A stretch of 64,000 nucleotides of DNA from Linderina pennispora (lineage: Eukaryota > Kickxellomycota > Kickxellomycetes > Kickxellales > Kickxellaceae), in contig NW_024468251.1 of NCBI RefSeq assembly GCF_002104995.1, positions 1,550,001 to 1,614,000 on the forward strand, in the 5' to 3' direction. The position numbers were made by a program, and so were the translations under genes. The notes below the pieces were generated by a model, which was not told the origin of the DNA, made no database searches, and saw only the letters and a list, made by a program, of their open reading frames with translations. Below, in pieces: positions 36,476 through 59,363 of this stretch. Every line of letters starts with the position of its first letter. The stretch's first letter is position 1.

Positions 36476-37604
36476 TCAGCGTAGGCGCTTCAGCGCTGGC
36501 TCGCTGCTGCTGGCAACAGAATCGCCTGCTGCTGCACGCCTCTTGCGCGGGTTCTTTGTTGCAGGGGTGGTGCCAGAAGTATCGGCAGCAATGGCCGTAA
36601 AGCGACGGAACCGTTCAGGAATACTGCCTGAATCACAGAGTGACTGGAAAATGAGTCTGAAGTTTAGAACTGCTGCAAGATTGCAGTTCAAGAGCCGAGA
36701 CGAATAGGCTCGCCTGTATTGTGCCATGGCCCGCTTACATGACTCGCTTGTACAGCGGAGAAGGCCATGGCACTTCACAGTTGGGTTCTTCGATCTCTGG
36801 TAGGGCCGCGGGTTGGGAACATGCCGGAATGTCTGCAGTGACTTATCGCAGCAGAACGGGCACATCGACGATGTCCGGAATTCGTCGATCAGATAGACTT
36901 CAAAGCCATGGTGCTTGAACTTGTCGCGCCATCCCTTGCCACGAATCGGCGCATGGTGCCGGGCCATCGGCGCACTCCAGTTGCCCATGATCAGCACTGG
37001 ATCTGGACCAAACTTGCTCCGGAGTTTCGCGGCAAGCCTGTGGTCTGCACGGGCCTGGTTCATGAATGAATCAAGGCACAGCTTGCGGTGAAGTGGGTAC
37101 ACCTTGGGACTGGTCCCGACACCCGGATGGTCCTTACAGCGCCTTTGGTGCTGCTTGTTTGACTTAGTGGGCTGCTGCTCTGGTAACCTTCGCGTTGTCA
37201 TCGTGTTTGCATAAAACGGTGCTAGGACACACCGCACAGATGCACGGGCAGCAACGTAGGCACGGAATTTTGCTGGGCTAAGGGTCCGGCAGCAGTGCTT
37301 GGAAAGCTCTGCCTCTGCCCTGCGGACAGCATCTTCTGGGACTTGATCCTTTGTACCCCCCGACGAATCCTGTCATGGTGGCGCAGCTTGAGCTCCTTAT
37401 TACGCTGCTGCCGTGTGTAGCGGTAGAGCATTCTCTCACCCTCTTTCCCATTGCTGCTATTTTCGTGCATCATATACAGTAAATCGCCCCGACCTGGATC
37501 GATGAATACACAGCGACCTTTCAGATTCTGCAGCTCTGGCTGTGGGATCTGGTGGATATAGTGACAGTCAGCTATAGTACTGCCTCCCACAGCACCACCT
37601 CCTG

Positions 37605-37760
37605 CAACATCGCCTGTAGCATTGCCTGTAGCATTGCCTCCCACAGCATCGCCTGTAGCATCGCCTGTAGCATCGCCTCCCACAGCATCGCCTGTAGCAT
37701 CACCTCCCACAGCATTGCCTGTAGCATTGCCTCCCGCAGCATTGCCTCCTGCAGCACCAG
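37605..37760 (-). repeat. 15/30-bp coding minisatellite in Fanzor copy 2
   Basis: Units such as GCATCGCCTGTAGCATC alternate with CCTCCCACA versions and encode (G-D/N-A-T-G-D/N-A-V-G-G)n. Copies 1 and 3 have only one or two units here, so the linker ahead of RuvC-I expanded in copy 2. Confidence 0.8.
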
Positions 37761-38508
37761 CCTTAGGTACCTTGTCTTGTAACAAAATGCATATCGTTAC
37801 ACCATCTGTTGTCGCCATCCCGTGGAATTTTCTATCACCATGCGCCTTAAATGGCTTTGATGTTAGATCTGCGACCCGGCCCCATACATCCCACACAGAT
37901 TGTGTGATCCCTTGGACCGGGTCGTGTGCACAGACTGGGGGTGCTGGTGCATATGCATTGTTAAGTGCTGCAACAGTGTCTGCTGCTGCTGCCGATGCAG
38001 CAGCAAGTGAATCAGCCGCTACTGCTGCAGTTGCTGCAGTGGCCTCTGTTGCATCCGATGGCATCTTCGCTGCTTCGCGTGCAGCCTTCTTGGCCAATTT
38101 TTCGCCCTTTTCTGCTGCTTTCCTTGCCTCTGTTGCTGCCCTCTTTGCTGCATTGATCTTGGTAACCTCCTCACGTGTTTTCGAAACAAACACCTGCTTG
38201 ATTATTTGCTTGTCTAAGCGCACATGGCCTGGGATCCATGATGTCTGCAGAGGCAAGCATTAAGGGGGAGACTTGCCAAGCTGCTCATTCTCGATAAGCT
38301 GGCATAGGCGAATGTATGCACGCAGATGCTTAAGCGGATTTACCTTGGCATCATAGTATCGGCTGTCTTTGGCGAATCTGTACTTGGCACCATAGGCATT
38401 AAGGACTGGTGCCAGCTTGTTGTAGATTGCAAGCATCGGTGGGGTGAGCACACTGAGATCAGGGTGCCTAGAGGCAACTGCCTGGCGGAGCTTCTGTGCA
38501 GGCGTATA

Positions 38509-38905
38509 GGAGATCAGCCAGAATTGGTTAGCTTTTTAATAATTATTAATAGTTTTACTATTTTATTGTTCAGATGCCAAATATGGTGCTTCTACGAAAC
38601 CCCCTTCGGCATCCTGAAAAATTTCAGTTGATTTCTCGGGACGCAGCCTCTATCTCAGTAGAAGCATATTAATTGTGTATCAACTGAAATTTTTCAGGAT
38701 GCCGAAGGGGGTTTCGTAGAAGCACCATATTTGGCATCTTTGTTTATTTGTTAATCTAGTTGCTAGAATCTTTTTGGCCACTACTAAACATTCTGTATTT
38801 TAAAATATTTATCTACTGCTAGTAATTGATTTCTTATTTGTTAATTGGTTATTCTGATAATAGTTATTTAGTTTCTTTAACTATTTATATTTGTGAATGG
38901 CCTCC
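38509..38905 (+). mobile_element. Solo 397-bp terminal repeat (P-a) in the Fanzor copy 2 gene
   Basis: Starts GGAGATCAG, ends ATGGCCTCC, flanked by ATA on both sides (38506-38508, 38906-38908). Copy 1 shows the empty site with one ATA. Internal palindrome 38573-38738 has 60-bp arms and a 46-bp spacer in the common orientation. It differs at several AT-rich sites from the other five repeats, so it is probably the oldest. Confidence 0.9.
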
Positions 38906-40096: not shown

Positions 40097-40493
40097 GGAG
40101 GCCATTCACAAATATAAATAGTTAAAGAAACTAAATAACTATTATCAGAATAACCAATTAACAAATAAGAAATCAATTACTAGCAATAGATAAATATTTT
40201 AAAATACAGAATGTTTAGTAGTGGCCAAAAAGATTCTAGCAACTAGATTAACAAATAAACAAAGATGCCAAATATGGTGCTTCTACGAAACCCCCTTCAG
40301 CATCCTGAAAAATTTCAGTTGATACACAATTAATATGCTTCTACTGAGATAGAGGCTGCATCCCGAGAAATCAACTGAAATTTTTCAGGATGCCGAAGGG
40401 GGTTTCATAGAAGCACCATATTTGGCATCAGAACAAGAAAACAATAAAAATATTAATAATTATGAAATAGCTAACCAATTCTGACTGATCTCC
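40097..40493 (-). mobile_element. Solo 397-bp terminal repeat (P-b) at the 5' end of Fanzor copy 2
   Basis: Starts GGAGGCCAT and ends GATCTCC on the plus strand; ATA duplicated at 40094-40096 and 40494-40496. Copy 1 has the empty TATATATAGG site. One palindrome arm has its own variants (CTTCAG for CTTCGG). Spacer orientation relative to the ends matches P-a, P-c and P-f. Confidence 0.9.
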
Positions 40494-41114: not shown

Positions 41115-41267
41115 CCTATAGTAATTTATATATAGTATCAATATTGCCAATATCATCAAAGAGCATACATATATGCTTACATAATAAATATTACTCTATC
41201 AACTAGCTGACAATGATGCCTTTGATCCTGCAATATTTATAATAAGGGGTTTTTTGTTCTATATATT

Positions 41268-41664
41268 GGAGATCAGTCAGAATTGGTTAGCTATTTCATA
41301 ATTATTAATATTTTTATTGTTTTCTTGTTCTGATGCCAAATATGGTGCTTCTACGAAACCCCCTTTGGCATCCTGAAAAATTTCAGTTGATTTCTCGGGA
41401 CGCAGCCTCTATCTCAGTAGAAGCATATTAATTGTGTATCAACTGAAATTTTTCAGGATGCCGAAGGGGGTTTCGTAGAAGCACCATATTTGGCATCTTT
41501 GTTTATTTGTTAATCTAGTTGCTAGAATCTTTTTGGCCACTACTAAACATTCTGTATTTTAAAATATTTATCTACTGCTAGTAATTGATTTCTTATTTGT
41601 TAATTGGTTATTCTGATAATAGTTATTTAGATTCTTTAACTATTTATATTTGTGAATGGCCTCC
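41268..41664 (+). repeat. Left terminal direct repeat of element I (P-c)
   Basis: 397 bp. Carries two variants shared only with P-f: CTTTGG in the left palindrome arm, and ATTC for TTTC near its right end. Its last nine bases are the first three codons (Met-Ala-Ser) of the 547-aa gene. Confidence 0.92.
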
Positions 41665-42488
41665 TTGGGAGTACATCTTAACTCCCTTTTGGGACTTCAG
41701 TTGAAGAATAGAGATAATATGCCTGATATATCTGATGCAAGATATACTAGTAATGGCATTGAACAACAAGGATTTGTTCAGCAATCTGATATCTTTATGG
41801 ATTCATGTATTGTTGAGATACCTGAATCATATGCTCTTATAGATCAGATTAACAATATTACTCCATTTGTTAGATTGCATAGAGTTTTTGGTGATGGATA
41901 CAGATTTAAGTATATGAAGTGCATGACAAGTGCAAGAAATGGTAAAGTCTCTGTTTACAAAGTATCTGCTCCAAATGTTGCAATAGCTGATCCTGCACTA
42001 ACTGATATCTTTCTTAGGATGCATCAGGAACATGTATTTCTTCTGAACTATGATATTACAATGGATTGTTTAAACATATCTTCTAGGGCTGTGATTAAGG
42101 AATTTCTTCTTGATAATGAAATCAGTAGCAATGATATTCTTGATGATGAAGATAAAGTTGGAGCAAACTGTATTAGCTGGTTTACTGAAGAAGATGAAAT
42201 AAAAATTAGGAACAAGTTATATAATAAATTTGTTCAACTTCTAGAAAGTGGTGAGGTTCGTAATCAACTTACTTCTAAGCTATCAGAGCTAGTGATGCCA
42301 ACTTCTCAGCAATTTGGTGAAACACTTGTTGCTTGCAGGAATGAAGGATTAATGAGACTTGAGCTTACTGTTCACTCTCCTGAGTTGAAAGAAGTAGAAT
42401 GGAACATAAACTTAATTGCTAGTACACTGGAGTTTCTTAGTGATTGTAGGACATTTGCAACATCTTATGAAAAGCAATGGATGGCACT

Positions 42489-42950
42489 GGGGGTTATACA
42501 GAGATACTTATCTGCCCATTAACTATTTATGCATGCTGGAACTATTGGCAATTTCAGTGAAATAAAAATTTCACCCAAACCGCCATCGGCATCTTGGAAA
42601 AGTTTCAGTGAACATAATTTTAACCAGAAAGAAAAACCTTTGCATATTTGGGGTTAATTATCATTGGGCAACAAAAGTCAATATCTCAATAGATATGGCT
42701 AAGTAACCACAAGGAAATTATGTTCACTGAAACTTTTCCAAGATGCCGATGGCGGTTTGGGTGAAATGGCAAAAAAAATATTTGTATTTTTAAAATCAAT
42801 TATACACACAAAAACATTCTGGACACAACAATTATGAATATCTGTTCCAAAAATATCTAGTAGCTAAAAATAGTTCTGAAAACGATTATTCAAATATCTA
42901 TCTAACAAAATTGTAATTTACTAAAATTTATAAGTTCAGGAATGACCCCC
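42489..42950. mobile_element. P2: 462-bp palindrome-bearing MITE-like element
   Basis: Ends GGGGGTTAT and ATGACCCCC (inverted, one mismatch), with ACT duplicated on each side (42486-42488, 42951-42953). A perfect 52-bp-arm palindrome lies at 42569-42766 with a 94-bp spacer. The arms align with the 60-bp arms of the P repeat over about 37 bp, including CGGCATC and TTTCAGT, although the outer ends differ. No coding capacity. Confidence 0.88.
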
Positions 42951-43051
42951 ACTAGTTGATCAGATTTATAACAAAAATATGTTATGCATTTACTTCCATA
43001 AAGAACATGCTCTTGGTTACTGCCATTGGTTCAATAGGACAACTATGAAGA

Positions 43052-43448
43052 GGAGGCCATTCACAAATATAAATAGTTAAAGAAACTAAATAACTATTAT
43101 CAGAATAACCAATTAACAAATAAGAAATCAATTACTAGCAGTAGATAAATATTTTAAAATACAGAATGTTTAGTAGTGGCCAAAAAGATTCTAGCAACTA
43201 GATTAACAAATAAACAAAGATGCCAAATATGGTGCTTCTACGAAACCCCCTTCGGCATCCTGAAAAATTTCAGTTGATTTCTCGGGACGCAGCCTCTATC
43301 TCAGTAGAAGCATATTAATTGTGTATCAACTGAAATTTTTCAGGATGCCGAAGGGGGTTTCGTAGAAGCACCATATTTGGCATCAGAACAAGAAAACAAT
43401 AAAAATATTAATAATTATGAAATAGCTAACCAATTCTGACTGATCTCC
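43052..43448 (-). repeat. Terminal direct repeat of element II (P-d), 3' side
   Basis: 397 bp, transposase-proximal repeat in element order. Spacer flipped, arms without the P-c/P-f variant. Identical in state to P-e. Confidence 0.92.
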
Positions 43449-43755
43449 TTATAGAACTAGACTTAATCAAAAGGTTCCATTTTAAAACATCATGTTCAAG
43501 TCATCAAGTCGTTATCATCCTATTTATAACTATTTTTCTAATACCAAGTAATCATATATATTATCAATTTTAAAAAGAATCAAACTATGCCATTTTAAAA
43601 AATCATAATAAACTCATCAAGTTGTTAGAACCCCATCTGTAATAAGTAGATATGCACCAAGCAATCATATATACAATCATTTTTAGAAAGATTCAAACTG
43701 TGCCATTTTAAAACATCATATTCAAGTCATCAAGTCATTAGTACTCCATCTGTAA

Positions 43756-44985
43756 TTAATCAATATGCACCAAGCAATCATATGTATCATCAATTTTAGA
43801 TTGAAGGAATCGATTTTGAATTTCAACAATAGATGCTTCTAACTCTGCTTTTTGGGGCAAAGTATGTATTGGTTCCACTTGTGTTGACTTATCATGTGTA
43901 TCAGGGTAATCAAAGTTACTCATAACCCAGAGTGAGTGATGATGATCAATATGTACATCACTGTTTGCTAGTAACTTCTTCATATTATAGAGTAAGCAGC
44001 ATAACTTCATTTGCACATTGTAAACATTCCTATTCTTTACTCTAACAATCTCCCTGTTTGACAGCCTTTTGAATGTATTGCCTAGTTCTCCAAATGTATT
44101 TTCTACCATTGAACGGAATGATCCAAGATGGGAATTATATTCAGCTTCTGTTTCTGATAAACTTGTTCCTCTCTGCTTTCTTACTGGTAAACAAAAGTTG
44201 TGCAGTCCAAAAGTATCCTGCTCTTCTTCCTCAGTCATCTCTTCCAAAATACTTTGTGGATAGCCACCATCAAGCACAATGCAATCAATAGGTGATATGT
44301 TCTTCAGTAGCCCCATGTTCTTAATCATTCTTGAGTCTGGGTGATCTCTACAGTCTTCAGTTGGTGAAACAAGTAGAACCATTCCATTCACATCAATGCA
44401 TACTTGTGTGCGATATCCTGATTTTTTCAATTTGAATGAATAGAGATCTGGTTTGTATGCTCCATTGTGTAGTGCTCTTGAGTCATGGCCATCTAACATT
44501 AGTGTTACATGTTTAAACCCTTGTGGATTCTGTATCTTTGCTGCAAAGACTCGTAGTTCTGGAGTTGAAAACATTGTTTGTAGATAGTATGTTAGCTTCT
44601 TGTTCAAATCTTTCATTTCAGAAATATAGAACATATTGTGAATAGCTTGATAGCTGCTTCTTGGAATGAATCTTTCCATTTCATTGATTGACAATCCTTC
44701 AACAAGTTGGTACAAGATGAGCAATCCTTTCTCTACACTTCTGTAAGGACATGGATAATGAGTGCAACCAAACAAAACATTCAGAAAGAAGAAAACAGGA
44801 ATCATCCCTAGATGTTTAAGAAGTGTATCTTTTATATGCTTAATTTCTCTTACTTCACGAACTTCACTTCTGTGATATTTTGTGGGCTTTAAAATTACCC
44901 AGTCATCATTCAGAAACTTCCATTTGTTTGTGTACAGCTTATGAAACTCCCTTTCTCTGAGTTCTTGTAATTGATGATTCATCAT
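43756..44985 (-). CDS. DDE transposase of element II (DDE_Tnp_4, Harbinger/HARBI1-like)
   Basis: 409 aa. A ~100-residue N-terminal part with a helix-turn-helix-like stretch ('LVEGLSINEMERFIPRSSY') precedes an RNase-H-fold core. The acidic triad reads Asp165 ('LMLDGHDSR'), Asp239 ('IVLDGGYP') and Glu295 ('SMVENTFGEL'). Between them 'KKSGYRTQVCIDVNGMVLL' and 'DHPDSRMIKN' fit the DDE_Tnp_4 family used by PIF/Harbinger elements, as does the 3-bp target duplication. It should cut at the element ends and join them to staggered target cuts. AT-rich codons contrast with the GC-rich host genes. The start lies 25 bp from the divergent 84-aa gene, implying a shared bidirectional promoter. Confidence 0.88.
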   Translation of the reverse strand: MMNHQLQELREREFHKLYTNKWKFLNDDWVILKPTKYHRSEVREVREIKHIKDTLLKHLGMIPVFFFLNVLFGCTHYPCPYRSVEKGLLILYQLVEGLSINEMERFIPRSSYQAIHNMFYISEMKDLNKKLTYYLQTMFSTPELRVFAAKIQNPQGFKHVTLMLDGHDSRALHNGAYKPDLYSFKLKKSGYRTQVCIDVNGMVLLVSPTEDCRDHPDSRMIKNMGLLKNISPIDCIVLDGGYPQSILEEMTEEEEQDTFGLHNFCLPVRKQRGTSLSETEAEYNSHLGSFRSMVENTFGELGNTFKRLSNREIVRVKNRNVYNVQMKLCCLLYNMKKLLANSDVHIDHHHSLWVMSNFDYPDTHDKSTQVEPIHTLPQKAELEASIVEIQNRFLQSKIDDTYDCLVHID

Positions 44986-45010
44986 TGTGAGGCACTCATA
45001 AATTTAAAAG

Positions 45011-45265
45011 TTGTCATTTATTACAATGGGCCCATTCTACACTTTCTTCACTACAAAACTTGCTGACCTTGATGAGCAAGAGAGAGAAAAGCTTGCACAA
45101 CTACTAACTAAGAATTTCAGTATGAGCAGGAAATTGTCAGTATATATCAGAGCATGGATTGAGAGTGTTTCAGAAGATAAGGGTGTTACTATTAAGCATG
45201 TGTTTGATGTATGCAACTACAGTTGTGCAGATATGGAAGTAATGGTTGCTAACTGCCCATTTTAA
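45011..45265 (+). CDS. 84-aa element protein, unknown function (element II)
   Basis: Open frame in both elements, between the two larger genes and antisense to both in element order. Sequence is helical and charged ('LADLDEQEREKLAQLLTKNF') with two Cys near the end. Start 25 bp from the transposase start and stop 3 bp from the 547-aa stop: the three genes tile the interior with almost no gaps, which argues that it is real. PIF/Harbinger elements often need a second, DNA-binding protein; this could be such a partner or a regulator. Confidence 0.6.
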   Translation: MSFITMGPFYTFFTTKLADLDEQEREKLAQLLTKNFSMSRKLSVYIRAWIESVSEDKGVTIKHVFDVCNYSCADMEVMVANCPF

Positions 45266-45267
45266 AA

Positions 45268-46911
45268 CTAGATCCTCGCAATATAGATAATACGATTATG
45301 AATTCTAGCTACTTTAAGTACTACTTCTTGATTTGGTTCACCAATAATAGAAGCAATATATTCACCAAATGGACTACTTGCTTGTATTTTGATATGAGTG
45401 TGAGTACTGCTAACTACTTCATTGTGAATCATATAGATATCTAGATAGTAGAATGGCAACCCTCTAAAAGTATATAAGAAATAATGACTAACTAGGAACT
45501 CATCTCCAGCATGAAGTATGTTATAAGCAACTTTGTATCTAGCTGGCCTAAGATCAGTATTTTCTCTTATGTATATGGGTTCTAGATCATCAAGTTCAAT
45601 GTTGCTGATATCAGCAATAAGATCATCTATTCCTAGGTCATCAGCATCCTCACTAATACTTGAGAGAGTTGAGAGACAAACTTTCTCTCTTGCTTGTTGA
45701 GCAGTTAGCCAATCAATATGCATCCCACGATAGTTTACAAGTCCCATTTCAGCAAATGTGTGTTGTTGTCTTTCTCTTGAAGCAACAGGCCAGAAAGAAT
45801 TCCTCTGACTTGGAACAATGGTGATGTTTGTGTTATCTCTTCTTAGAACAACTTCTGATTCAACAGGACCACTGCTGGTAGCATATGTTAGAAGAACAGT
45901 TGGGTGCCCATTAAATGTAAGATTGGAAACAACAGTCATCACATCCTCATTCTCTTTTAACTTTTTAGCTATTCCTTGTTTCTTCATAGTTGTCCTATTG
46001 AACCAATGGCAGTAACCAAGAGCATGTTCTTTATGGAAGTAAATGCATAACATATTTTTGTTATAAATCTGATCAACTAGTGCCATCCATTGCTTTTCAT
46101 AAGATGTTGCAAATGTCCTACAATCACTAAGAAACTCCAGTGTACTAGCAATTAAGTTTATGTTCCATTCTACTTCTTTCAACTCAGGAGAGTGAACAGT
46201 AAGCTCAAGTCTCATTAATCCTTCATTCCTGCAAGCAACAAGTGTTTCACCAAATTGCTGAGAAGTTGGCATCACTAGCTCTGATAGCTTAGAAGTAAGT
46301 TGATTACGAACCTCACCACTTTCTAGAAGTTGAACAAATTTATTATACAACTTGTTCCTAATTTTTATTTCATCTTCATCAGTAAACCAGCTAATACAGT
46401 TTGCTCCAACTTTATCTTCATCATCAAGAATATCATTGCTACTGATTTCATTATCAAGAAGAAATTCCTTAATCACAGCCCTAGAAGATATGTTTAAACA
46501 ATCCATTGTAATATCATAGTTCAGAAGAAATACATGTTCCTGATGCATCCTAAGAAAGATATCAGTTAGTGCAGGATCAGCTATTGCAACATTTGGAGCA
46601 GATACTTTGTAAACAGAGACTTTACCATTTCTTGCACTTGTCATGCACTTCATATACTTAAATCTGTATCCATCACCAAAAACTCTATGCAATCTAACAA
46701 ATGGAGTAATATTGTTAATCTGATCTATAAGAGCATATGATTCAGGTATCTCAACAACACATGAATCCATAAAGATATCAGATTGCTGAACAAATCCTTG
46801 TTGTTCAATGCCATTACTAGTATATCTTGCATCAGATATATCAGGCATATTATCTCTATTCTTCAACTGAAGTCCCAAAAGGGAGTTAAGATGTACTCCC
46901 AAGGAGGCCAT
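45268..46911 (-). CDS. 547-aa element-encoded protein of unknown function (element II)
   Basis: Open from the ATG that lies in the terminal repeat (Met-Ala-Ser from ATGGCCTCC, then 'LGVHLNSLLGLQLKN'). No domain recognised. Notable segments: 'RLHRVFGDGYRFKYMKCM', an acidic middle ('NEISSNDILDDEDKVG'), and 'LCIYFHKEHALGYCHWFNR' with clustered Cys and His. I see no Myb/SANT signature, which is what classical Harbinger partners have. Its size and its promoter inside the repeat suggest a core function in transposition or replication of the element. Predicted soluble; no membrane segments. Confidence 0.8.
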   Translation of the reverse strand: MASLGVHLNSLLGLQLKNRDNMPDISDARYTSNGIEQQGFVQQSDIFMDSCVVEIPESYALIDQINNITPFVRLHRVFGDGYRFKYMKCMTSARNGKVSVYKVSAPNVAIADPALTDIFLRMHQEHVFLLNYDITMDCLNISSRAVIKEFLLDNEISSNDILDDEDKVGANCISWFTDEDEIKIRNKLYNKFVQLLESGEVRNQLTSKLSELVMPTSQQFGETLVACRNEGLMRLELTVHSPELKEVEWNINLIASTLEFLSDCRTFATSYEKQWMALVDQIYNKNMLCIYFHKEHALGYCHWFNRTTMKKQGIAKKLKENEDVMTVVSNLTFNGHPTVLLTYATSSGPVESEVVLRRDNTNITIVPSQRNSFWPVASRERQQHTFAEMGLVNYRGMHIDWLTAQQAREKVCLSTLSSISEDADDLGIDDLIADISNIELDDLEPIYIRENTDLRPARYKVAYNILHAGDEFLVSHYFLYTFRGLPFYYLDIYMIHNEVVSSTHTHIKIQASSPFGEYIASIIGEPNQEVVLKVARIHNRIIYIARI

Positions 46912-47299
46912 TCACAAATATAAATAGTTAAAGAAACTAAATAACTATTATCAGAATAACCAATTAACAAATAAGAAATCAATTACTAGCAGTAGATAAA
47001 TATTTTAAAATACAGAATGTTTAGTAGTGGCCAAAAAGATTCTAGCAACTAGATTAACAAATAAACAAAGATGCCAAATATGGTGCTTCTACGAAACCCC
47101 CTTCGGCATCCTGAAAAATTTCAGTTGATTTCTCGGGACGCAGCCTCTATCTCAGTAGAAGCATATTAATTGTGTATCAACTGAAATTTTTCAGGATGCC
47201 GAAGGGGGTTTCGTAGAAGCACCATATTTGGCATCAGAACAAGAAAACAATAAAAATATTAATAATTATGAAATAGCTAACCAATTCTGACTGATCTCC
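46903..47299 (-). repeat. Terminal direct repeat of element II (P-e), 5' side
   Basis: 397 bp; supplies the start codon and presumably the promoter of the 547-aa gene. Same flipped spacer as P-d. Confidence 0.92.
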
Positions 47300-48017
47300 A
47301 GAAACAAGGAATAGCTAAAAAGTTGAAAGAGAATGAGGATGTGATGACTGTTGTTTCCAATCTTACATTTAATGGGCACCCAACTGTTCTTCTAACATAT
47401 GCTACCAGCAGTGGTCCTGTTGAATCAGAAGTTGTTCTAAGAAGAGATAACACAAACATCACCATTGTTCCAAGTCAGAGGAATTCTTTCTGGCCTGTTG
47501 CTTCAAGAGAAAGACAACAACACACATTTGCTGAAATGGGACTTGTAAACTATCGTGGGATGCATATTGATTGGCTAACTGCTCAACAAGCAAGAGAGAA
47601 AGTTTGTCTCTCAACTCTCTCAAGTATTAGTGAGGATGCTGATGACCTAGGAATAGATGATCTTATTGCTGATATCAGCAACATTGAACTTGATGATCTA
47701 GAACCCATATACATAAGAGAAAATACTGATCTTAGGCCAGCTAGATACAAAGTTGCTTATAACATACTTCATGCTGGAGATGAGTTCCTAGTTAGTCATT
47801 ATTTCTTATATACTTTTAGAGGGTTGCCATTCTACTATCTAGATATCTATATGATTCACAATGAAGTAGTTAGCAGTACTCACACTCATATCAAAATACA
47901 AGCAAGTAGTCCATTTGGTGAATATATTGCTTCTATTATTGGTGAACCAAATCAAGAAGTAGTACTTAAAGTAGCTAGAATTCATAATCGTATTATCCAT
48001 ATTGCGAGGATCTAGTT

Positions 48018-48272
48018 TTAAAATGGGCAGTTAGCAACCATTACTTCCATATCTGCACAACTGTAGTTGCATACATCAAACACATGCTTAATAGTAACAC
48101 CCCTATCTTCTGAAACACTCTCAATCCATGCTCTGATATATACTGACAATTTCCTGCTCATACTGAAATTCTTAGTTAGTAGTTGTGCAAGCTTTTCTCT
48201 CTCTTGCTCATCAAGGTCAGCAAGTTTTGTAGTGAAGAAAGTGTAGAATGGGCCCATTGTAATAAATGACAA
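48018..48272 (-). CDS. 84-aa element protein, unknown function (element I)
   Basis: Same as 45011-45265 with one change (Lys to Arg in 'SED(K/R)GVTI'). Intact. Lies tail to tail with the broken 547-aa gene and head to head with the transposase. Confidence 0.6.
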   Translation of the reverse strand: MSFITMGPFYTFFTTKLADLDEQEREKLAQLLTKNFSMSRKLSVYIRAWIESVSEDRGVTIKHVFDVCNYSCADMEVMVANCPF

Positions 48273-48297
48273 CTTTTAAATTTATGAGTGCCTCACA

Positions 48298-49527
48298 ATG
48301 ATGAATCATCAATTACAAGAACTCAGAGAAAGGGAGTTTCATAAGCTGTACACAAACAAATGGAAGTTTCTGAATGATGACTGGGTAATTTTAAAGCCCA
48401 CAAAATATCACAGAAGTGAAGTTCGTGAAGTAAGAGAAATTAAGCATATAAAAGATACACTTCTTAAACATCTAGGGATGATTCCTGTTTTCTTCTTTCT
48501 GAATGTTTTGTTTGGTTGCACTCATTATCCATGTCCTTACAGAAGTGTAGAGAAAGGATTGCTCATCTTGTACCAACTTGTTGAAGGATTGTCAATCAAT
48601 GAAATGGAAAGATTCATTCCAAGAAGCAGCTATCAAGCTATTCACAATATGTTCTATATTTCTGAAATGAAAGATTTGAACAAGAAACTAACATACTATC
48701 TGCAAACAATGTTTTCAACTCCAGAACTACGAGTCTTTGCAGCAAAGATACAGAATCCACAAGGGTTTAAACATGTAACACTAATGTTAGATGGCCATGA
48801 CTCAAGAGCACTACACAATGGAGCATACAAACCAGATCTCTATTCATTCAAATTGAAAAAATCAGGATATCGCACACAAGTATGCATTGATGTGAATGGA
48901 ATGGTTCTACTTGTTTCACCAACTGAAGACTGTAGAGATCACCCAGACTCAAGAATGATTAAGAACATGGGGCTACTGAAGAACATATCACCTATTGATT
49001 GCATTGTGCTTGATGGTGGCTATCCACAAAGTATTTTGGAAGAGATGACTGAGGAAGAAGAGCAGGATACTTTTGGACTGCACAACTTTTGTTTACCAGT
49101 AAGAAAGCAGAGAGGAACAAGTTTATCAGAAACAGAAGCTGAATATAATTCCCATCTTGGATCATTCCGTTCAATGGTAGAAAATACATTTGGAGAACTA
49201 GGCAATACATTCAAAAGGCTGTCAAACAGGGAGATTGTTAGAGTAAAGAATAGGAATGTTTACAATGTGCAAATGAAGTTATGCTGCTTACTCTATAATA
49301 TGAAGAAGTTACTAGCAAACAGTGATGTACATATTGATCATCATCACTCACTCTGGGTTATGAGTAACTTTGATTACCCTGATACACATGATAAGTCAAC
49401 ACAAGTGGAACCAATACATACTTTGCCCCAAAAAGCAGAGTTAGAAGCATCTATTGTTGAAATTCAAAATCGATTCCTTCAATCTAAAATTGATGATACA
49501 TATGATTGCTTGGTGCATATTGATTAA
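48298..49527 (+). CDS. DDE transposase of element I (DDE_Tnp_4, Harbinger-like)
   Basis: 409 aa, predicted protein identical to the copy at 43756-44985, with Asp165, Asp239 and Glu295 all kept. Although its partner gene is interrupted in element I, this transposase is still open and could act in trans together with the 547-aa protein of element II. About 300 bp of AT-rich non-coding DNA with internal imperfect repeats of the last ~60 bp ('ATGATTGCTTGGTGCATAT' units) separates it from the right terminal repeat. Confidence 0.88.
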   Translation: MMNHQLQELREREFHKLYTNKWKFLNDDWVILKPTKYHRSEVREVREIKHIKDTLLKHLGMIPVFFFLNVLFGCTHYPCPYRSVEKGLLILYQLVEGLSINEMERFIPRSSYQAIHNMFYISEMKDLNKKLTYYLQTMFSTPELRVFAAKIQNPQGFKHVTLMLDGHDSRALHNGAYKPDLYSFKLKKSGYRTQVCIDVNGMVLLVSPTEDCRDHPDSRMIKNMGLLKNISPIDCIVLDGGYPQSILEEMTEEEEQDTFGLHNFCLPVRKQRGTSLSETEAEYNSHLGSFRSMVENTFGELGNTFKRLSNREIVRVKNRNVYNVQMKLCCLLYNMKKLLANSDVHIDHHHSLWVMSNFDYPDTHDKSTQVEPIHTLPQKAELEASIVEIQNRFLQSKIDDTYDCLVHID

Positions 49528-49834
49528 TTACAGATGGAGTACTAATGACTTGATGACTTGAATATGATGTTTTAAAATGGCACAGTTTGAATCTTTCTAA
49601 AAATGATTGTATATATGATTGCTTGGTGCATATCTACTTATTACAGATGGGGTTCTAACAACTTGATGAATTTATTATGATTTTTTAAAATGGCATAGTT
49701 TGATTCTTTTTAAAATTGATAATATATATGATTACTTGGTATTAGAAAAATAGTTATAAATAGGATGATAACGACTTGATGACTTGAACATGATGTTTTA
49801 AAATGGAACCTTTTGATTAAGTCTAGTTCTATAA

Positions 49835-50231
49835 GGAGATCAGTCAGAATTGGTTAGCTATTTCATAATTATTAATATTTTTATTGTTTTCTTGTTCTGA
49901 TGCCAAATATGGTGCTTCTACGAAACCCCCTTTGGCATCCTGAAAAATTTCAGTTGATTTCTCGGGACGCAGCCTCTATCTCAGTAGAAGCATATTAATT
50001 GTGTATCAACTGAAATTTTTCAGGATGCCGAAGGGGGTTTCGTAGAAGCACCATATTTGGCATCTTTGTTTATTTGTTAATCTAGTTGCTAGAATCTTTT
50101 TGGCCACTACTAAACATTCTGTATTTTAAAATATTTATCTACTGCTAGTAATTGATTTCTTATTTGTTAATTGGTTATTCTGATAATAGTTATTTAGATT
50201 CTTTAACTATTTATATTTGTGAATGGCCTCC
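49835..50231 (+). repeat. Right terminal direct repeat of element I (P-f)
   Basis: 397 bp, shares both diagnostic variants with P-c. Its terminal ATGGCCTCC is followed in frame by Fanzor codons (see copy 3 gene). Confidence 0.92.
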
Positions 50232-52438
50232 ATTTATCACAACCTGAAGGTAAAGATAGCTATACCTGCTAAGAATTTCATCAACTGGAAGGACAGGTCA
50301 GAACTATTAAGCACAGATTTCAGGGATATAATTAGATACCATATTTATGATTATCTAGTATATAATAGTGATATTAAGCTATATGGTACATGTGAAATGA
50401 ATCAGGTAGCAATATATGTTGATACCAAGCTGATGACAATATATAAGAACATCATTGTGTTGCACTATGGTACCTGCCTACAGCAGATTCTGGCCTAATT
50501 GGTTGATATTCGCAGTTATGAAAACACACTGCATAGTACAATAGGCAATGTGTCTAAGGCTGAGTTCAATAATGCATGTCAAGTGTGTATTTATACACCT
50601 GCACAGAAGCTCCGCCAGGCAGTGGCCTCTAGGCACCCTGATCTCAGTGTGCTCACCCCACTGATGCTTGCAATCTACAACAAGCTGGCACCAGTCCTTA
50701 ATGCCTATGATGCCAAGGCAAATCCACTTGAGCATCTGCGTGCATACATTCGCCTATGCCAGCTTATCGAGAATGAGCAGCTTGGCAAGTCTCCTCCCCA
50801 ATGCTTGCCTCTGCGGAAATCATGGATCCCAGGCCATGTGCGCTTAGACAAGCAAATAATCAAACAGGTGTTTATTTCGAAAACACGCGAGCAGGTTACC
50901 AAGATCAGCGCAGCAAAGAAGGCAGCAACAGAGGCGAGGAAAGCAGCAGAAAGGGGAGAAAAATTGGCCAAGAAGGCTGCACGCGAAGCAGCGAAGGTGC
51001 CATCAGATGAAACAGAAGCCACTGCAGCAACTGCGGCAGTAGCGGCTGATTCACTTGTTGCTGCATCGGCGGGAGCAGCAGACACTGTTGCAGCACTTAA
51101 CAATGCATATGCATCAGCACCATCAGTCTGTGCACACGACCCGGTCCAAGGGATCACATAATCTGTGTGGGATGTGTGGGGCCGGGTCACAGATCTAACA
51201 TCAAAGCCATTTAAGGCGCATGGTGATAGAAAATTCCACGGAATGGCGACAACAGATGGTATAACGATATTCATTTTGCTACAAGACAAGGTATCCAAGG
51301 CTGATGCTGCAGGAGGCGATGCTACAGGCGATGTTGCAGGAGGTGGTGCTGTGGGAGGCAATACTATAGCTGACTGTCGCTATATCCACCAAATCCCACA
51401 GTCAGAGCTGCAGAATCTGGAAGGCCGCTGTGTATTCATCGATCCAGGTCAGGGCGATTTACTGTATATGATGCACGGAAATAGCAGCAATGGGAAAGAG
51501 GGTGAAAAAATGCTCTACCGCTACACACGGCAGCAGCGCAATAAGGAGTTCAAGCTGCGCCACCATGACAGGATTCGTCGGGGGGTACAAAGGATCAAGT
51601 CCCAGAAGATGCTGTCCGCAGGGCAGAGGCAGAGCTTTCCAAGCACTGCTGCCGGACCCTTAGCCCAGCAAAATTCCGTGCCTACGTTGCTGCCCGTGCA
51701 TCTGTGCGGTGTGTCCTAGCACCGTTTTATGCAAACACGATGACAACGCGAAGGTTACCAGAGCAGCAGCCCACTAAGTCAAACAAGCAGCACCAGAGGC
51801 GCTGGAAGGCCCATCCGGGTGTCGGGACCAGTCCCAAGGTGTACCCACTTCACCGCAAGCTGCGCCTTGATTCATTCATGAACCAGGCCCGTGCAGACCA
51901 CAGGCTTGCCGCGAAACTCCGGAGCAAGTTCAGTCCAGATCCAGTGCTGATCATGGGCAATTGGAGTGCGCCGATGGCCCGACACCATGCGCCGATTCTT
52001 GGCAAGGGATGGCGCGACAAGTTCAAGCACCATGGCTTTGAAGTCTATCTGATCGACGAATTCCGGACATCGTCGATGTGCCCGTTCTGCTGCGAAAAGT
52101 CGCTGCAGACATCCCGGCATGTTCCCAACCTGCAGCCCTACCAGAGATCGAAGAACCCAACTGTGAAGTGCCATGTCCTTCTCCGCTGTACAAGCGAGTC
52201 ATGTAAGCAGACCATGGCACAATACAGGCGAGTTTATTCGTCTCGGCTCTTGAACCGCGATCTCGCAGCAGTTTTAAACTTCAGACTCGTTTTCCAGTCA
52301 CTCTGTGGTTCAGGCAGTATTCCTGAACGGTTCCGTCGTTCTACGACCATTGCTGCCAATGCTTCTGGCACCACCCCTGCAACAAAGAACCCGCGCAAGA
52401 GGCTGCGCAAGAGGCGTACAGCAGCGAATCAGCGCTGA
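50223..52438 (+). pseudogene. Fanzor gene, copy 3, main part fused to the transposon's start codon
   Basis: The N-terminal piece is left at 41115-41267. The rest starts with Met-Ala-Ser from the right end of element I and continues in frame as 'IYHNLKVKIAIPAKNF'. Stops: TAA at 50498 and TAA near 51160 (CAA to TAA). A GGGGGG run near 51580 shifts the frame by one, as in copy 2. RuvC-I 'VFIDPGQGDLL' (Asp at 51441), RuvC-II 'LIDEFRTSSMCPFC' (Glu at 52058) and RuvC-III 'NRDLAAVLNF' (Asp at 52259) are all intact, so the last 244 codons still encode an unaltered RuvC-II/zinc/RuvC-III block. The protein as a whole cannot be made. Confidence 0.75.
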
Positions 52439-52883: not shown

Positions 52884-54938
52884 CTACTTGGTGGTCGAGA
52901 GCTCCTTGTACAGATCGCCGATGATGTCCTTAAAGTACGACAGTGCATCACGTCGCTTGAGCTTGAATGTGGGCGTAATCAGCCCGATGTCTTCGAATGG
53001 TGTGGACAGCAGGTATATGCTCTTTGCAATTTCGAATCCCTTGAGGTCATGGGCCTTACCCCACGCGGCCAGCTCAGCTGTGACCTCTCTGCGCACCTTG
53101 GTGTCACGGCAAATATCCTTGAGCGGCAAGTTCGACTTGGGTGGCAGAATGTTCTTGCTCTTTAAGAACATGGGCAGGAACTCTTCGTCCGGGACAATAA
53201 TTGCAACCAGTGCATTCTGCAGCGGGTCGCCGTAGATATAAGCCTGGTTTACAATAAAGTGATCCATATAAATGTTCTCGATGCGCTCGGGTGCAATGTA
53301 CTCGCCTTGCGCCAGCTTGAACAAATTCTTCATGCGATCGATGATATGCAGCCGGCCGTACTTGTCGAACATGCCAATGTCGCCTGTGTTTACCCATTCG
53401 TCGCCACGTTCCAACAGCACCATGTTGCTGTTTTCCTTGTAATACTTCTTGGCAACCGAGGTGCCCGAGATAAGGATCTGGCCACGCGGAAATGGCTTAT
53501 CGTCGACGGTGTAGCCGAGCTCAGGTGCGCTGCGTAGCTTGATCATGGTGCTAGGCAAAGGTCCACCGACATTTCCGGGCTCCACATCGTCGCACTTGGT
53601 TAGGGTTGCTGGGCCCATGGTTTCTGTGAGGCCGTATCCTTCAACAACATTGCATGAGAAGCAGCAGCGCAAAAACTCAAGCGTCTCGGGCGAAATAGGA
53701 GCCGACCCCGATACAATCAGATTGAGGCGGCCGCCAAATTTTTCGCGCAGCGGTTTGAATATCACGCGGTCCCACAGCCAGTGGTTGACTTGACCGTGCT
53801 TTAGGTTGCCCTTCTTGGTCGTCAGCGCATACTGGAACAGCGCTGAGGGCAAACCGCCGCGTGTGCGCACTGCTGATAGAACCTTGTCCTGGATGCGGTT
53901 AAATATGCGAGGCACACCAACAAATATCGTTGGTCGCAGTTCCTGGATATCATCAATCAGCCTTAGAGTGTCGCCAGAAGCGAATGCCGTCTTGGTGCCA
54001 CGCGAAAGCATGATGTGCAGCACCATGCGGCCGAGGCAATGTGCTAGCGGTAGGAATCCCATCGAGCAGTCTTCAGGTGAGATATTGCATATATCACCAC
54101 ATTTCTGGATCATTGAGGCTCCAGCGCATGATGCCAGCATGTTTCCGTGGGTGATAACGACGCCCTTTGGTGTACCCGAGGTGCCGCTCGTATATACAAT
54201 CGTGGCGACATCATCGGGGCCAGGGAGCCGCTCTGGATCGACAACTCCCTTTATGCCCGAATCCTCCACGTATCGGAACGGTCGGATACTGATTCCATGC
54301 TCCTCACCCAGCGCAACTACATCGTTGGTTAGCGTGTCGACCACAATCAGGTTCATAACCACCGGCACAAACTCAATCAAGCTCAGGATGTACCGCGCAT
54401 TCTGGTTTGTGCAGACAATCGTCTTGAGCTCAGCCTCATTCACCATATGCTCGATAGCAGCCTGGCCAAGTGTTTCGTACAAGGGAACCGATACAAAGTT
54501 CTGATAGTAGCCAGCAAACTCGGTCAGCACCCATTCGACGCTGTTGTTCATGAATATACCGATGTTGTCGCCAGCGCGCATACCCAGGTGTACGAGACCG
54601 GAAGATAAATTGACGAATCGCTCATGGAATATGTCCCACGAGAGCCACCGATAGGGCCCAACGTTGCCCATACCGTCGACGACTACGCGGTAGCCGAATA
54701 CAGGTGCGTCGCGGCCAGCCAGGCGCCGCCCCTGCAGAAAGTTTTCGTACAGCGAGTTGATGCCCTTTGGTCGGGACACCAGCTTTCCGTCCTTCAAGTT
54801 GTTGTTGATACGCGGCTACAGGGCGGACATAGTTAGAAACGGGTGTCGTGTGGAGCTTGAATTCCAACAAGGCATGACGCTCACCTTGGTCTCATTGGGA
54901 ATGGCTGGCGCGCCTGGGAGCTCAATAGAACTAAGCAT
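52884..54938 (-). CDS. Long-chain acyl-CoA synthetase
   Basis: Exon 1 54938-54885 ('MLSSIELPGAPAIPNETK'), intron 54884-54816 (69 bp, GTGAGC/TAG), exon 2 54815-52884; 661 aa in frame. ANL-superfamily motifs: 'VYTSGTSGTPKGVVITHGN' (ATP-binding loop), 'FVGVPRIFNRIQDKVL', 'VSGSAPISPETLEFL', 'VEGYGLTETMGP', 'NTGDIGMFDKYGRLHIIDR' and the C-terminal Lys in 'PTFKLKRRDAL'. It activates long-chain fatty acids to acyl-CoA with ATP, feeding lipid synthesis or peroxisomal oxidation. Size and motifs match ACSL-type enzymes without an N-terminal anchor. Its 3' end lies about 280 bp from the right end of Fanzor copy 3. Confidence 0.95.
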
Positions 54939-57082: not shown

Positions 57083-59363
57083 CTAGTAGAATGAGTAGCT
57101 CCTGTCAGATTTCCCGTCGGGGCTGCACATGACCGAGCCCTGGTCGCCGATATCCTGGTACAGCCGATTGACGCATGACCGGTAGTGGCGCAGCGCCTCA
57201 TACCGCTTGAGCTTCATACTAGGCGTCAGCAAATCATAGTAATCGAACGAGTGCGGTTCCAGGAACAGACTAGAGATCAGCTCATGCGCCCGCAATCCAC
57301 GAGCAGTGCCATGCCGGTTGATCTCATTGCGTACAGCATTGCGGATGTTCTCGTCAGCGCAGATAAGCTCGTGTGAGATTCGCGAGCCCTCAGGAATTAG
57401 CTTATTGTTGAGCAGGAACACCTCCATGAACTCCTTGTCCGGCACTGCTATTCCCACCAGCCGGTCGTGATCCGAGCTGCCATACACGAATGCCTGGCTG
57501 ACTAGTCCGTTGTCGCAGTACACATACTCGAGGCGCTCTGGCTCAATGGACTCGCCGGTTTTTAAAGTGAAAATGTTGACAATGCGGTCCAGCACCCGCA
57601 TCCGTCCTAGTGCATCAAATGTGCCCAGATCTCCTGTCCGTAGCCACCCATCAGGCGAAAGAACCTGGGCTGTCAACTCTGGTTGGCGGTAGTACCCCCG
57701 GAACACATTTGCGCCCTTGACGTAGATCTCACCCCTTGGGAACGGCTTGTCGTCGACCTTGTATCCGAGTTCTTTGACACTGACCAGCTTGATCATGCTT
57801 GTCGGGAACGGCGATCCAACGTGCCCCGAGATGTTATCCTTTGACACTGTCATGCAGGAGGCACCTGTGGTCTCTGTGAGGCCGTATCCTTCCACGACAT
57901 CACACGAGAAGATGCAGCGAATGAAGTCAAGTGCCTCGCGCGAAATCGACGATGTTCCTGAGACGACTAGCCGGATATTGCCCCCGAGAGTCTCGCTGAT
58001 GGGCTTGAAGATAACCTGGTCCCACAGCCAATGCCCCCTCTGCCCTTGCTTCATGTTGCGTAGTTTGGCACGCATCGCATGCTTGAAAATCGAGCTCATC
58101 ATATTACCGCGCTCCTTCACTGATGACATGACCTTGTCTTGCACGCGGTTGAAGAACTTGGGCACACCAAAAAATATTGTCGGCTTTAGCTGCCGCAAAT
58201 CAGAAAGCAGGCACCTTGGATCGTTGCGTGTGAATGCTGTCTTCGCGCCCAATGCGATGATCATATGCATTAGCGAGCGGCCCTGGACATGCGAGAGCGG
58301 AATAATGCTGACAGCGCAGTCGTTGGGCCCAATGTACGGTAGGTCGCGCTGGTCCATGACGAAATTGACGCCTGCACATATGGACACAATGTTGCCGTGC
58401 GTCAAGACAGCGCCCTTGGGCTGCCCAGTAGTCCCCGATGAGAACACAATTGTTGCAACCTCGTCATATCCGGGCTTGGACGGTGACTCAATGTCAGGGT
58501 ACTCGCGGCCATACCTTTCGACATCACACATATCGTACACAGCAAACCCCCTATCTGTCAGTCTATCGACAAGCTCCTGCACCGGCGGGTCCATCAAAAT
58601 GACCTTCTTCAGAAGCGGGATCTGGTCACGCATTTTTAGCAGCTTTTGAGCACACTCTGACGAGCAAAACACTGTTGTCAGCTCTGTCAGATTCAGCACA
58701 TACTCGCACGACAGCTGCCCCAGTGTCTCGTAGATCGCCACAGACACGTACCCGTGGTAATACGTAGCAAACTCGGCTATCAGCCATTCCAATCGGTTCC
58801 CAGAGAATATGCCAATGTTATCGCCCCGGCGCATCCCAAGACCAGCCAAGCCACGTGCAAGGCATCTAAACCGATCGTGGAACTCCCCGAACGATATCCA
58901 CGAGAACTCCGAGTCGGCGCCCTGTGCCGAATTCTTGCGGTATCCAAAGACTCGCGCCTTAGCTATGGGTTTGGAATGCAATCCAGGCATCAGTTTGCAT
59001 GCAAATGGAGGCCACTTTCTCTGTGTAGACAGATGCACCATAAGCCATAGCGCATGCCAGAGCTGCATATGTTTACACGGGAATCGGCACCAAATACTTA
59101 CGCCCTCCAGCGACCTCCATTCCGTGCAAGAAATTGTCATAGGCTGTTTTGACCTTTTCCACGCCAAACAGGAGCTTATAGTCGGACGCATGTCGGTTCA
59201 ACACCGGCTACGGAAGTACATGATGATTAGCTGCTATGTGATTCACATGCTAATCTGGTATTAATGGTATCAAAAATCTACTGATACTTGCCGTCGTCTC
59301 ACCCTCGATATGTGGGGAGTTTGGAATCGCGAGCGCATATTTCTGCTGCTTTGCATAACTCAT
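57083..59363 (-). CDS. Long-chain acyl-CoA synthetase, second intact copy
   Basis: Three exons: 59363-59292 ('MSYAKQQKYALAIPNSP'), 59207-59102 ('PVLNRHASDYKLLFGVE...'), 58962-57083; 685 aa in frame. Intron 1 (84 bp) has a GC donor (GCAAGT) and a TAG acceptor; intron 2 (139 bp) is GTAAGT/TAG and joins 'MEVAGG|PKARVFGYRK'. Motifs: 'VFSSGTTGQPKGAVLTHGN', 'FFGVPKFFNRVQDKVM', 'VSGTSSISREAL', 'VEGYGLTETTGAS', 'RTGDLGTFDALGRMRVLDR' and 'PSMKLKRYEALRHY'. Same reaction as the neighbour but clearly diverged, so an old duplication with different substrate range or location is likely. Confidence 0.94.

Follow-up and report, generated by a model that had tools for sequence, protein, structure and literature searches.

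A probable composite-like DDE transposon with long terminal direct repeats and an invertible hairpin in the fungus Linderina pennispora

Introduction

Can a DNA transposon be built on the plan of a long terminal repeat (LTR) retroelement? The question is raised by a stretch of 64,000 nucleotides of the Linderina pennispora genome (assembly GCF_002104995.1, contig NW_024468251.1, positions 1,550,001 to 1,614,000), called the window below, in which two nested elements, I and II, each carry a transposase gene between long direct repeats. A first-pass annotation had described them as DDE DNA transposons with 397-bp terminal direct repeats and knew of no family with such a plan. We find that the observation is real and recurs across the L. 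pennispora genome. Very probably, we are dealing with a composite-like DDE DNA transposon in which a three-gene core (INT) lies between two long terminal direct repeats (LTDRs) of 397-462 bp that have inverted ends of their own. The plan is not without precedent, since KolobokP, as presented in the available part of PMC9587614, already has LTDR-INT-LTDR units, solos and multimers. New with respect to the annotation are an invertible hairpin, solo repeats, a multimer and the start codon of a 547-aa protein inside the repeat.

Results

Two nested elements and their empty sites

Elements, repeats and hairpin are placed as follows (positions of the window).

41268..50231, + strand: element I, subfamily A; 3-bp duplication ATT at 41265-41267 and 50232-50234
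41268..41664, + strand: 5′ LTDR of element I, subfamily A, 397 bp
41332..41497, + strand: hairpin in the 5′ LTDR of element I, orientation called F; folding done on the identical 3′ copy
49835..50231, + strand: 3′ LTDR of element I, 397 bp
43052..47299, − strand: element II, 4248 bp, nested in element I; duplication AGA at 43049-43051 and 47300-47302
46903..47299, − strand: 5′ LTDR of element II, hairpin orientation opposite to that of element I
43052..43448, − strand: 3′ LTDR of element II, hairpin orientation opposite to that of element I
42489..42950, + strand: solo LTDR of subfamily C, 462 bp, inside element I; duplication ACT

The 397-bp repeats annotated in the same direction at both ends of elements I and II are indeed there, and they are identical within each element. 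Repeat comparison and reading of the sequence likewise agree with the outer ends GGAG...CTCC and with the ATT and AGA duplications. Both elements have a net length of 4,248 bp, which for element I is reached by subtracting element II, the 462-bp solo that the annotation had not named, and their duplications. The boundaries had been called firm. Empty sites were found for element II, the 462-bp solo and element I. The joined flanks of element II match the uninterrupted element II at 119 of 120 bases, and those of the 462-bp solo match it at 120 of 120. Element I and a further solo at 38509-38905 occupy two inverted, diverged copies of one host repeat, so that each copy provides the empty site for the insertion in the other. 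For the solo, 132 of 140 bases of the joined flanks match the paralogous window sequence; for element I, 122 of 150 columns do, 10 gap columns included. A third solo, at 40097-40493, had no empty site within the stretch examined.

The composite unit across the genome

The searched genome comprises 26.17 Mb in 222 contigs. Match rows numbered at least 94 (LTDR), 105 (transposase), 79 (547-aa protein) and 97 (79-aa protein), many of them being fragments or second matches of hairpins. Counts based on the LTDR are lower bounds, and orientation counts vary with the query used (F-type or inverted hairpin). Transposase identity to the window (full-length rows) separates three subfamilies, A (96-100%), B (~87%) and C (~75%), with LTDRs of 397, 396 and 462 bp, respectively; the 547-aa protein of subfamily C is ~51% identical to that of the window.

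The annotation had proposed a search with the repeat and the 547-aa protein. A catalogue from fetched loci comprises 95 LTDRs (40 A, 9 B and 46 C), and at least 27 uninterrupted LTDR-core-LTDR pairs were found at two spacings. By position, at least 10 A pairs stand at ~3851 bp and at least 17 C pairs at ~3678 bp, two of the latter being steps of one tandem. The pair count uses full-length rows plus one position (C1:2110337) taken from locus L039, and nested elements escape the fixed spacing. The picture named in the annotation as contrary to its claim, in which most transposase copies have only short inverted ends, was not seen. A search for LTDR-free transposase copies with the chromodomain relative P0003 returned 91 rows, all by eye at places already matched.

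Identical 3-bp flanks were found at 14 of 16 complete elements listed by hand, where a fraction of 0.033 is expected with right sides re-dealt. The same is true of 17 of the 23 solo LTDRs of A and C (expected fraction 0.18), two of the 17 having common flanks and thus representing one event duplicated. B LTDRs (9 of 95) stayed outside both the solo count and the diversity analysis below. Matching inner and outer 3 bp occurred at none of the 72 LTDRs within elements. Set against the values for elements and solos, this zero indicates that insertion involves the composite or the solo as a unit, rather than an LTDR that is part of an element. The duplications (ATT, TCT, TAT, TTT, AGT, ATG, TGA, ATA, ACG, GCA, ACT and GAT) are mostly not TWA, the duplication of PIF/Harbinger elements. 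A bias suspected in a first sample (ATA at solos, TAT at full elements) faded with the genome-wide patterns and was dropped.

All five nested insertions whose flanks were joined restored an empty site: element II, the solo C, a full C element at L049, a full C element on C178 and a multimer. The last is seen at contigs C1 and C133, which both end within a tandem of subfamily C. When the outer flanks of the two are joined, 120 of 120 bases agree with an intact A element, and the duplication is TAT; we infer a single multimer that spans both contigs and has three or more units. The long repeats of the DDE transposon are thus part of the mobile unit, as annotated, according to pairs, duplications and empty sites alike.

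LTDRs and elements nest in one another, also into a hairpin (L048 3873-4601) and into a solo LTDR (L003 1501-1897). The solo C at 42489-42950 and the full C element L049 243-4386 share both insertion base and orientation in the 547-aa genes of A elements, and this common site may reflect an insertion hot spot or gene conversion. That the two were one insertion before and after repeat recombination was considered and dropped because their hosts differ at 4 of 242 positions on the left and 11 of 101 on the right, and the right parts of the LTDRs at 18 of 183.

LTDR ends and an invertible hairpin

Each LTDR is bounded by imperfect inverted ends of ~12 bp. Read inward, the left and right ends are GGAGATCAGTCA and GGAGGCCATTCA in subfamily A, GGAGGTCATTCA and GGAGGCCATTCA in B, and GGAGGTCATTCA and GGGGGTCATTCC in C, where some copies begin GGGGGTTATACA. 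The longest open reading frame (ORF) with an ATG within the LTDR encodes 32 aa in A and 24 aa in C. In subfamily B, a near copy of the LTDR's first 21 bases stands in front of the 3′ LTDRs.

Bases 65-230 of the A repeat (166 bp, 60-bp arms) and 80-279 of the C repeat (200 bp, 54-bp arms) form a hairpin that folds as DNA with −73.6 kcal/mol (z −19.5) and −70.4 kcal/mol (z −15.8), respectively. The hairpin is seen in either orientation while the flanking LTDR parts stay fixed, and elements I and II differ in this respect. Of 15 elements read over their whole length, 5 carry opposite hairpins in their two LTDRs, and the same is true of 8 of 27 pairs by position. Five otherwise identical C copies (L036, L041, L043, L044 and L045) display all four orientation combinations, so flipping appears to be faster than point mutation. 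Once the hairpins are turned alike, the LTDR pairs of 11 of the 15 elements are identical; the others differ by 2 gap positions (L039), 1 base and 7 gap positions (L049), 8 bases (L031) and 11 (L040). Two truncated C LTDRs (the first of L037, and L034C) were excluded from this comparison.

The arms within one copy match each other better than re-dealt arms do (0 of 5000 reshuffles, A and C alike); constant arm lengths were used, which puts a copy carrying an indel (value 18) out of register. Mean diversity is 0.025 in the A hairpin against 0.072 and 0.050 in the flanking parts, and 0.033 against 0.118 and 0.089 in C. Recombination, among arms as well as among LTDRs, would account for all these features of the hairpin.

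Core genes and their proteins

The core genes of the two elements are the following.

41656..42488, + strand: 547-aa gene of element I, first part, interrupted by the solo LTDR and element II
47300..48015, + strand: 547-aa gene of element I, last part
45268..46911, − strand: 547-aa gene of element II, uninterrupted; orphan protein
48018..48257, − strand: 79-aa gene of element I
45026..45265, + strand: 79-aa gene of element II, its end with the stop taken from the copy in element I
48298..49527, + strand: 409-aa transposase gene of element I, DDE_Tnp_4
43756..44985, − strand: 409-aa transposase gene of element II, DDE_Tnp_4

Three cargo genes including a DDE_Tnp_4 transposase had been annotated; all three are borne out, and the 409-aa protein matches this Pfam family at E 6.3e-14. 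Representatives of A, B and C have a common core order, with a 544-547-aa gene, an opposite-strand 79-aa gene and the 409-aa transposase gene, which encodes DDE_Tnp_4 in all three. The ratio of non-synonymous to synonymous substitution rates (dN/dS) between subfamilies is 0.10-0.34 for the three genes, a rough value for A versus C, where dS exceeds 1. Judged by these ratios, all three core proteins are under purifying selection. The ATG of the 547-aa gene of element I lies within the last 9 bp of the 5′ LTDR, and in all three subfamilies the start of the long gene falls inside the LTDR's right end. Since the LTDR holds this start codon, it presumably holds the promoter too. In subfamily B, the 79-aa gene is present again, as a diverged second copy, 3′ of the transposase gene (L042 3846-4085).

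An alignment of the window's transposase with 29 of 72 homologues has a conserved DDE triad, with D165 in 30 of 30, D239 in 29 of 29 and E295 in 28 of 28 aligned sequences; a C/DxxH motif between the second D and the E is present in 1 of 29. Named relatives come from Coemansia and from fungi presumably of the orders Mortierellales and Mucorales, many of them with a chromodomain. Searches of viral contigs and prokaryote genomes for relatives gave 109 and 60 pattern matches, respectively, none of which was confirmed.

The 547-aa protein is an orphan, with three homologous clusters among 5.8 billion proteins, all named Linderina. It had no Pfam match up to E 10, nothing meaningful among PDB sequences, no match in one set of phage and plasmid records and two at E 5 in another. 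Neither it nor the 79-aa protein matched a Pfam family above cut-off, hence no nuclease domain was found, and Pfam scans of the two also gave no Myb/SANT partner. The two predicted models of the 547-aa protein both have a mean predicted local distance difference test score (pLDDT) of 42, and only residues 44-139 matched anything, namely generic folds. Foldseek with these low-confidence models produced no hit that reached E 0.001, and the matches listed included no Rep_trans or TBP entry. As the annotation had stated, there is no reverse transcriptase, and no Gag or retroviral-type integrase either, in Pfam scans of the three core proteins.

The neighbourhood of the elements

Three further features complete the repeat landscape.

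38509..38905, + strand: solo LTDR, subfamily A; duplication ATA, empty paralogous site near 50590-50596
40097..40493, − strand: solo LTDR, subfamily A; duplication TAT in the solo's own orientation
49483..49821, + strand: three tandem 113-bp repeats at the core 3′ end of element I, between transposase gene and 3′ LTDR

The tandem copies are 100, 84 and 73% identical to the first. The LTDR insertions are hosted by an inverted and diverged pair of elements at 36476-38263 and 50664-52438, which we take to be TnpB/Fanzor-like. The element has a weak Cas12f1-like_TNB match under the family cut-off, and more pieces of it lie at 12143-12613. On either side of the transposon cluster stand a long-chain acyl-CoA-synthetase-like gene with an AMP-binding match and two ORFs similar by eye (31557-32198, 52884-54671 and 57083-59191).

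Discussion

LTDR-INT-LTDR units, single LTDRs and the multimer are all found between 3-bp duplications, several of them with an empty copy of the site. In the composite model that we favour, the DDE_Tnp_4 transposase would recognise the LTDR ends, act on the outermost pair and insert the whole unit; that it should act on the outermost ends follows from the duplications enclosing LTDR-INT-LTDR, its multimer and the solo. Recombination between the direct repeats, by unequal crossover, annealing or gene conversion, would then produce solos and (LTDR-INT)n-LTDR multimers and keep the two LTDRs of a pair alike; a part of the solos may instead stem from LTDRs moving on their own. The hairpin could be a recombination- or break-prone site, and this would account for both its two orientations and the matching of arms within one copy. 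The LTDR also supplies the start codon of the long gene, and presumably its promoter.

Several observations weigh against this model. It assigns no role to the 547-aa and 79-aa proteins, and the action of the transposase at the LTDR ends is inferred from sequence. The 3-bp flanks of L040 do not match (CAT/AAT), 6 of the 23 solos have no duplication, and at L034 the LTDRs are identical yet the duplications unlike (AAT/AGT). The hairpin flips are known from one assembly. Circular shifts reach the low hairpin diversity in 15 of 397 cases for A and 65 of 462 for C, so that the reduced diversity is a weak signal and may reflect plain constraint. At L034 (455-4702), where the LTDRs become identical once one hairpin is turned, the unlike flanks AAT and AGT perhaps arose from exchange between elements.

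Recombination need not be the main source of solos. Most of them might be LTDRs moved alone by the transposase, in the manner of miniature inverted-repeat transposable elements (MITEs), which would make the element a true composite of independently mobile ends. We hold this to be a serious but minority possibility. The inverted ends on both sides of each LTDR and the exact duplications at 17 of 23 solos speak for it, and LTDRs of KolobokP are thought to be excised alone (available part of PMC9587614); recombination after insertion would, however, leave identical duplications, and the suspected contrast in duplication sequence between solos and complete elements did not hold up. At the other extreme, repeats that were unrelated MITEs flanking a transposase gene by chance would account for the existence of solos. 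This we consider practically negligible and rejected: at least 27 pairs stand at constant spacing, none of the 72 internal LTDRs has matching inner and outer 3 bp, and the gene start lies inside the repeat in A, B and C. A non-autonomous LTR-INT-LTR retroelement, with reverse transcriptase supplied from elsewhere, would fit the long identical direct repeats, the solos and the gene start within the repeat. It is nevertheless very improbable. LTR retrotransposons have TG...CA ends and 4-6-bp duplications, whereas the element has GG...CC ends, 3-bp duplications and a repeat with inverted ends and a hairpin. Its core carries a DDE transposase gene under apparent purifying selection; neither a primer-binding site nor a polypurine tract is evident by eye at the core ends, which vary between subfamilies. 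The retroelement reading was thus rejected on ends, duplications and protein content.

A last alternative would give the 547-aa protein a function. As a Rep_trans-like tyrosine nickase it would cut the LTDR hairpin and copy LTDR-INT as a circle or concatemer, from which the DDE transposase would insert LTDR-INT-LTDR pieces; we regard this as unlikely, and just as doubtful is the corollary that one template gives both LTDRs of a new insertion. In the protein, D49, D133xT135xD137, Y189xK191xxQ194 and R234xE236 follow one another as the catalytic residues of Rep_trans initiators do (as given in the available part of PMC4797284). Without D49 this pattern is present in 8 of 9 aligned copies and was reached by 3 of 30000 shuffles and 0 of 30000 column shuffles. 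The spacing of DxT, YxK and RxE lies inside the range of 7 of 7 phage gene II proteins, a pattern reached by 10 of 20000 shuffles and by 0 of 20000 column shuffles; if the limits are relaxed by 5, the shuffles reach it in 48 of 20000. None of 73 background proteins has it, a weak control composed mostly of relatives of one transposase. A hairpin origin is consistent with published Rep_trans relatives (PMC13107129, as far as its accessible text goes), and identical LTDR pairs and multimers would follow from rolling-circle copying. However, both residue patterns were picked post hoc, and hhalign of the 547-aa protein against the seven gene II proteins stayed at shuffle level, a comparison confined to these phage proteins. 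The protein matches nothing in Pfam, its models are poor (pLDDT 42), and the L031 copy, whose 79-aa frame is also broken, is the one of nine without the tyrosine. A eukaryotic transposon joining DDE insertion at its outer ends with a Rep_trans-like nickase at a hairpin origin in each LTDR is accordingly a long shot. If it existed, repeat-to-repeat copying would regenerate two identical repeats each round in DNA only, paralleling what LTR elements achieve by reverse transcription, and the flipping hairpin would be a trace of copying. The likeness to Rep_trans initiators (accessible parts of PMC4797284, PMC6499999 and PMC13107129) lies in the putative order of catalytic residues and the possible hairpin origin; the element differs from them in its eukaryotic host and in the profile comparison, which gave no similarity for the 547-aa protein.

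Returning to the composite model, its closest counterpart is KolobokP (Kojima & Bao 2022, PMC9587614; statements are from the available part of the paper), described there as unlike any other DNA transposon. It has the LTDR-INT-LTDR plan, with solos and (LTDR-INT)n-LTDR multimers between short duplications, and LTDRs of ~450 or ~660 bp with short inverted ends of their own beginning 5′-RR. In 7 animal phyla, it combines a Kolobok transposase with C/DxxH and zinc fingers and a His-Me finger nuclease, which some KolobokP elements lack; a homing nuclease inducing unequal crossover is proposed by the authors. The Linderina element resembles it in being inserted as a whole LTDR-INT-LTDR unit, in the inverted ends of the LTDR, in solos and multimers and in an opposite-strand accessory gene. 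It differs in its DDE_Tnp_4 transposase, in C/DxxH being confined to 1 of 29 sequences, in the orphan 547-aa protein and in the fungal host; no His-Me nuclease domain was found by Pfam in the 547-aa and 79-aa proteins. Its large invertible LTDR hairpin is a further difference, the word "hairpin" being absent from the main text of PMC9587614, and this hairpin could replace the proposed homing nuclease. Sharing the architecture of KolobokP but not its proteins, the Linderina element works like KolobokP and is not one.

The Harbinger affiliation considered in the annotation stands in part. The DDE_Tnp_4-type transposase with its triad, the 3-bp duplications and the short inverted ends are shared with PIF/Harbinger (PHIS; available part of PMC12730594), a source according to which some related lineages also lack the Myb/SANT protein. 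Unlike PIF/Harbinger, the Linderina element has long terminal direct repeats and duplications that are mostly not TWA, and no Myb/SANT partner turned up. We therefore call it, with this qualification, Harbinger-like, a label drawn from DDE_Tnp_4, the DDE triad and the 3-bp duplications. Bacterial composite transposons, in which two end-bearing repeats flank a core and move together (PMC9587614, same part), offer the same arrangement and joint movement; in Linderina, by contrast, the transposase gene is in the core and the repeats have no ORF above 32 aa. With LTR retrotransposons the element shares long direct repeats, solos and a gene start within the repeat; it differs in its GG...CC ends, 3-bp duplications and DDE_Tnp_4 transposase, and no reverse transcriptase domain was found. 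Searches of open-licence articles in PMC brought up no described Harbinger-like or fungal version of the LTDR-INT-LTDR plan.

The element is thus a second composite-like, LTR-mimicking DNA transposon plan, built on another transposase family than that of KolobokP and provided with an invertible hairpin; it is a fungal version separate from the animal KolobokP and without a recognised nuclease. For annotation it carries the warning that long direct repeats and solos do not prove a retroelement. As a second case, its combination of another transposase, a fungal host and no recognised homing nuclease would suggest that paired ends made of direct repeats arose more than once and that they need no nuclease. 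It is a compact system, with many identical copies in a fungal genome of 26 Mb, for asking by what means a DDE element maintains two identical terminal repeats, and whether the invertible hairpin drives recombination.

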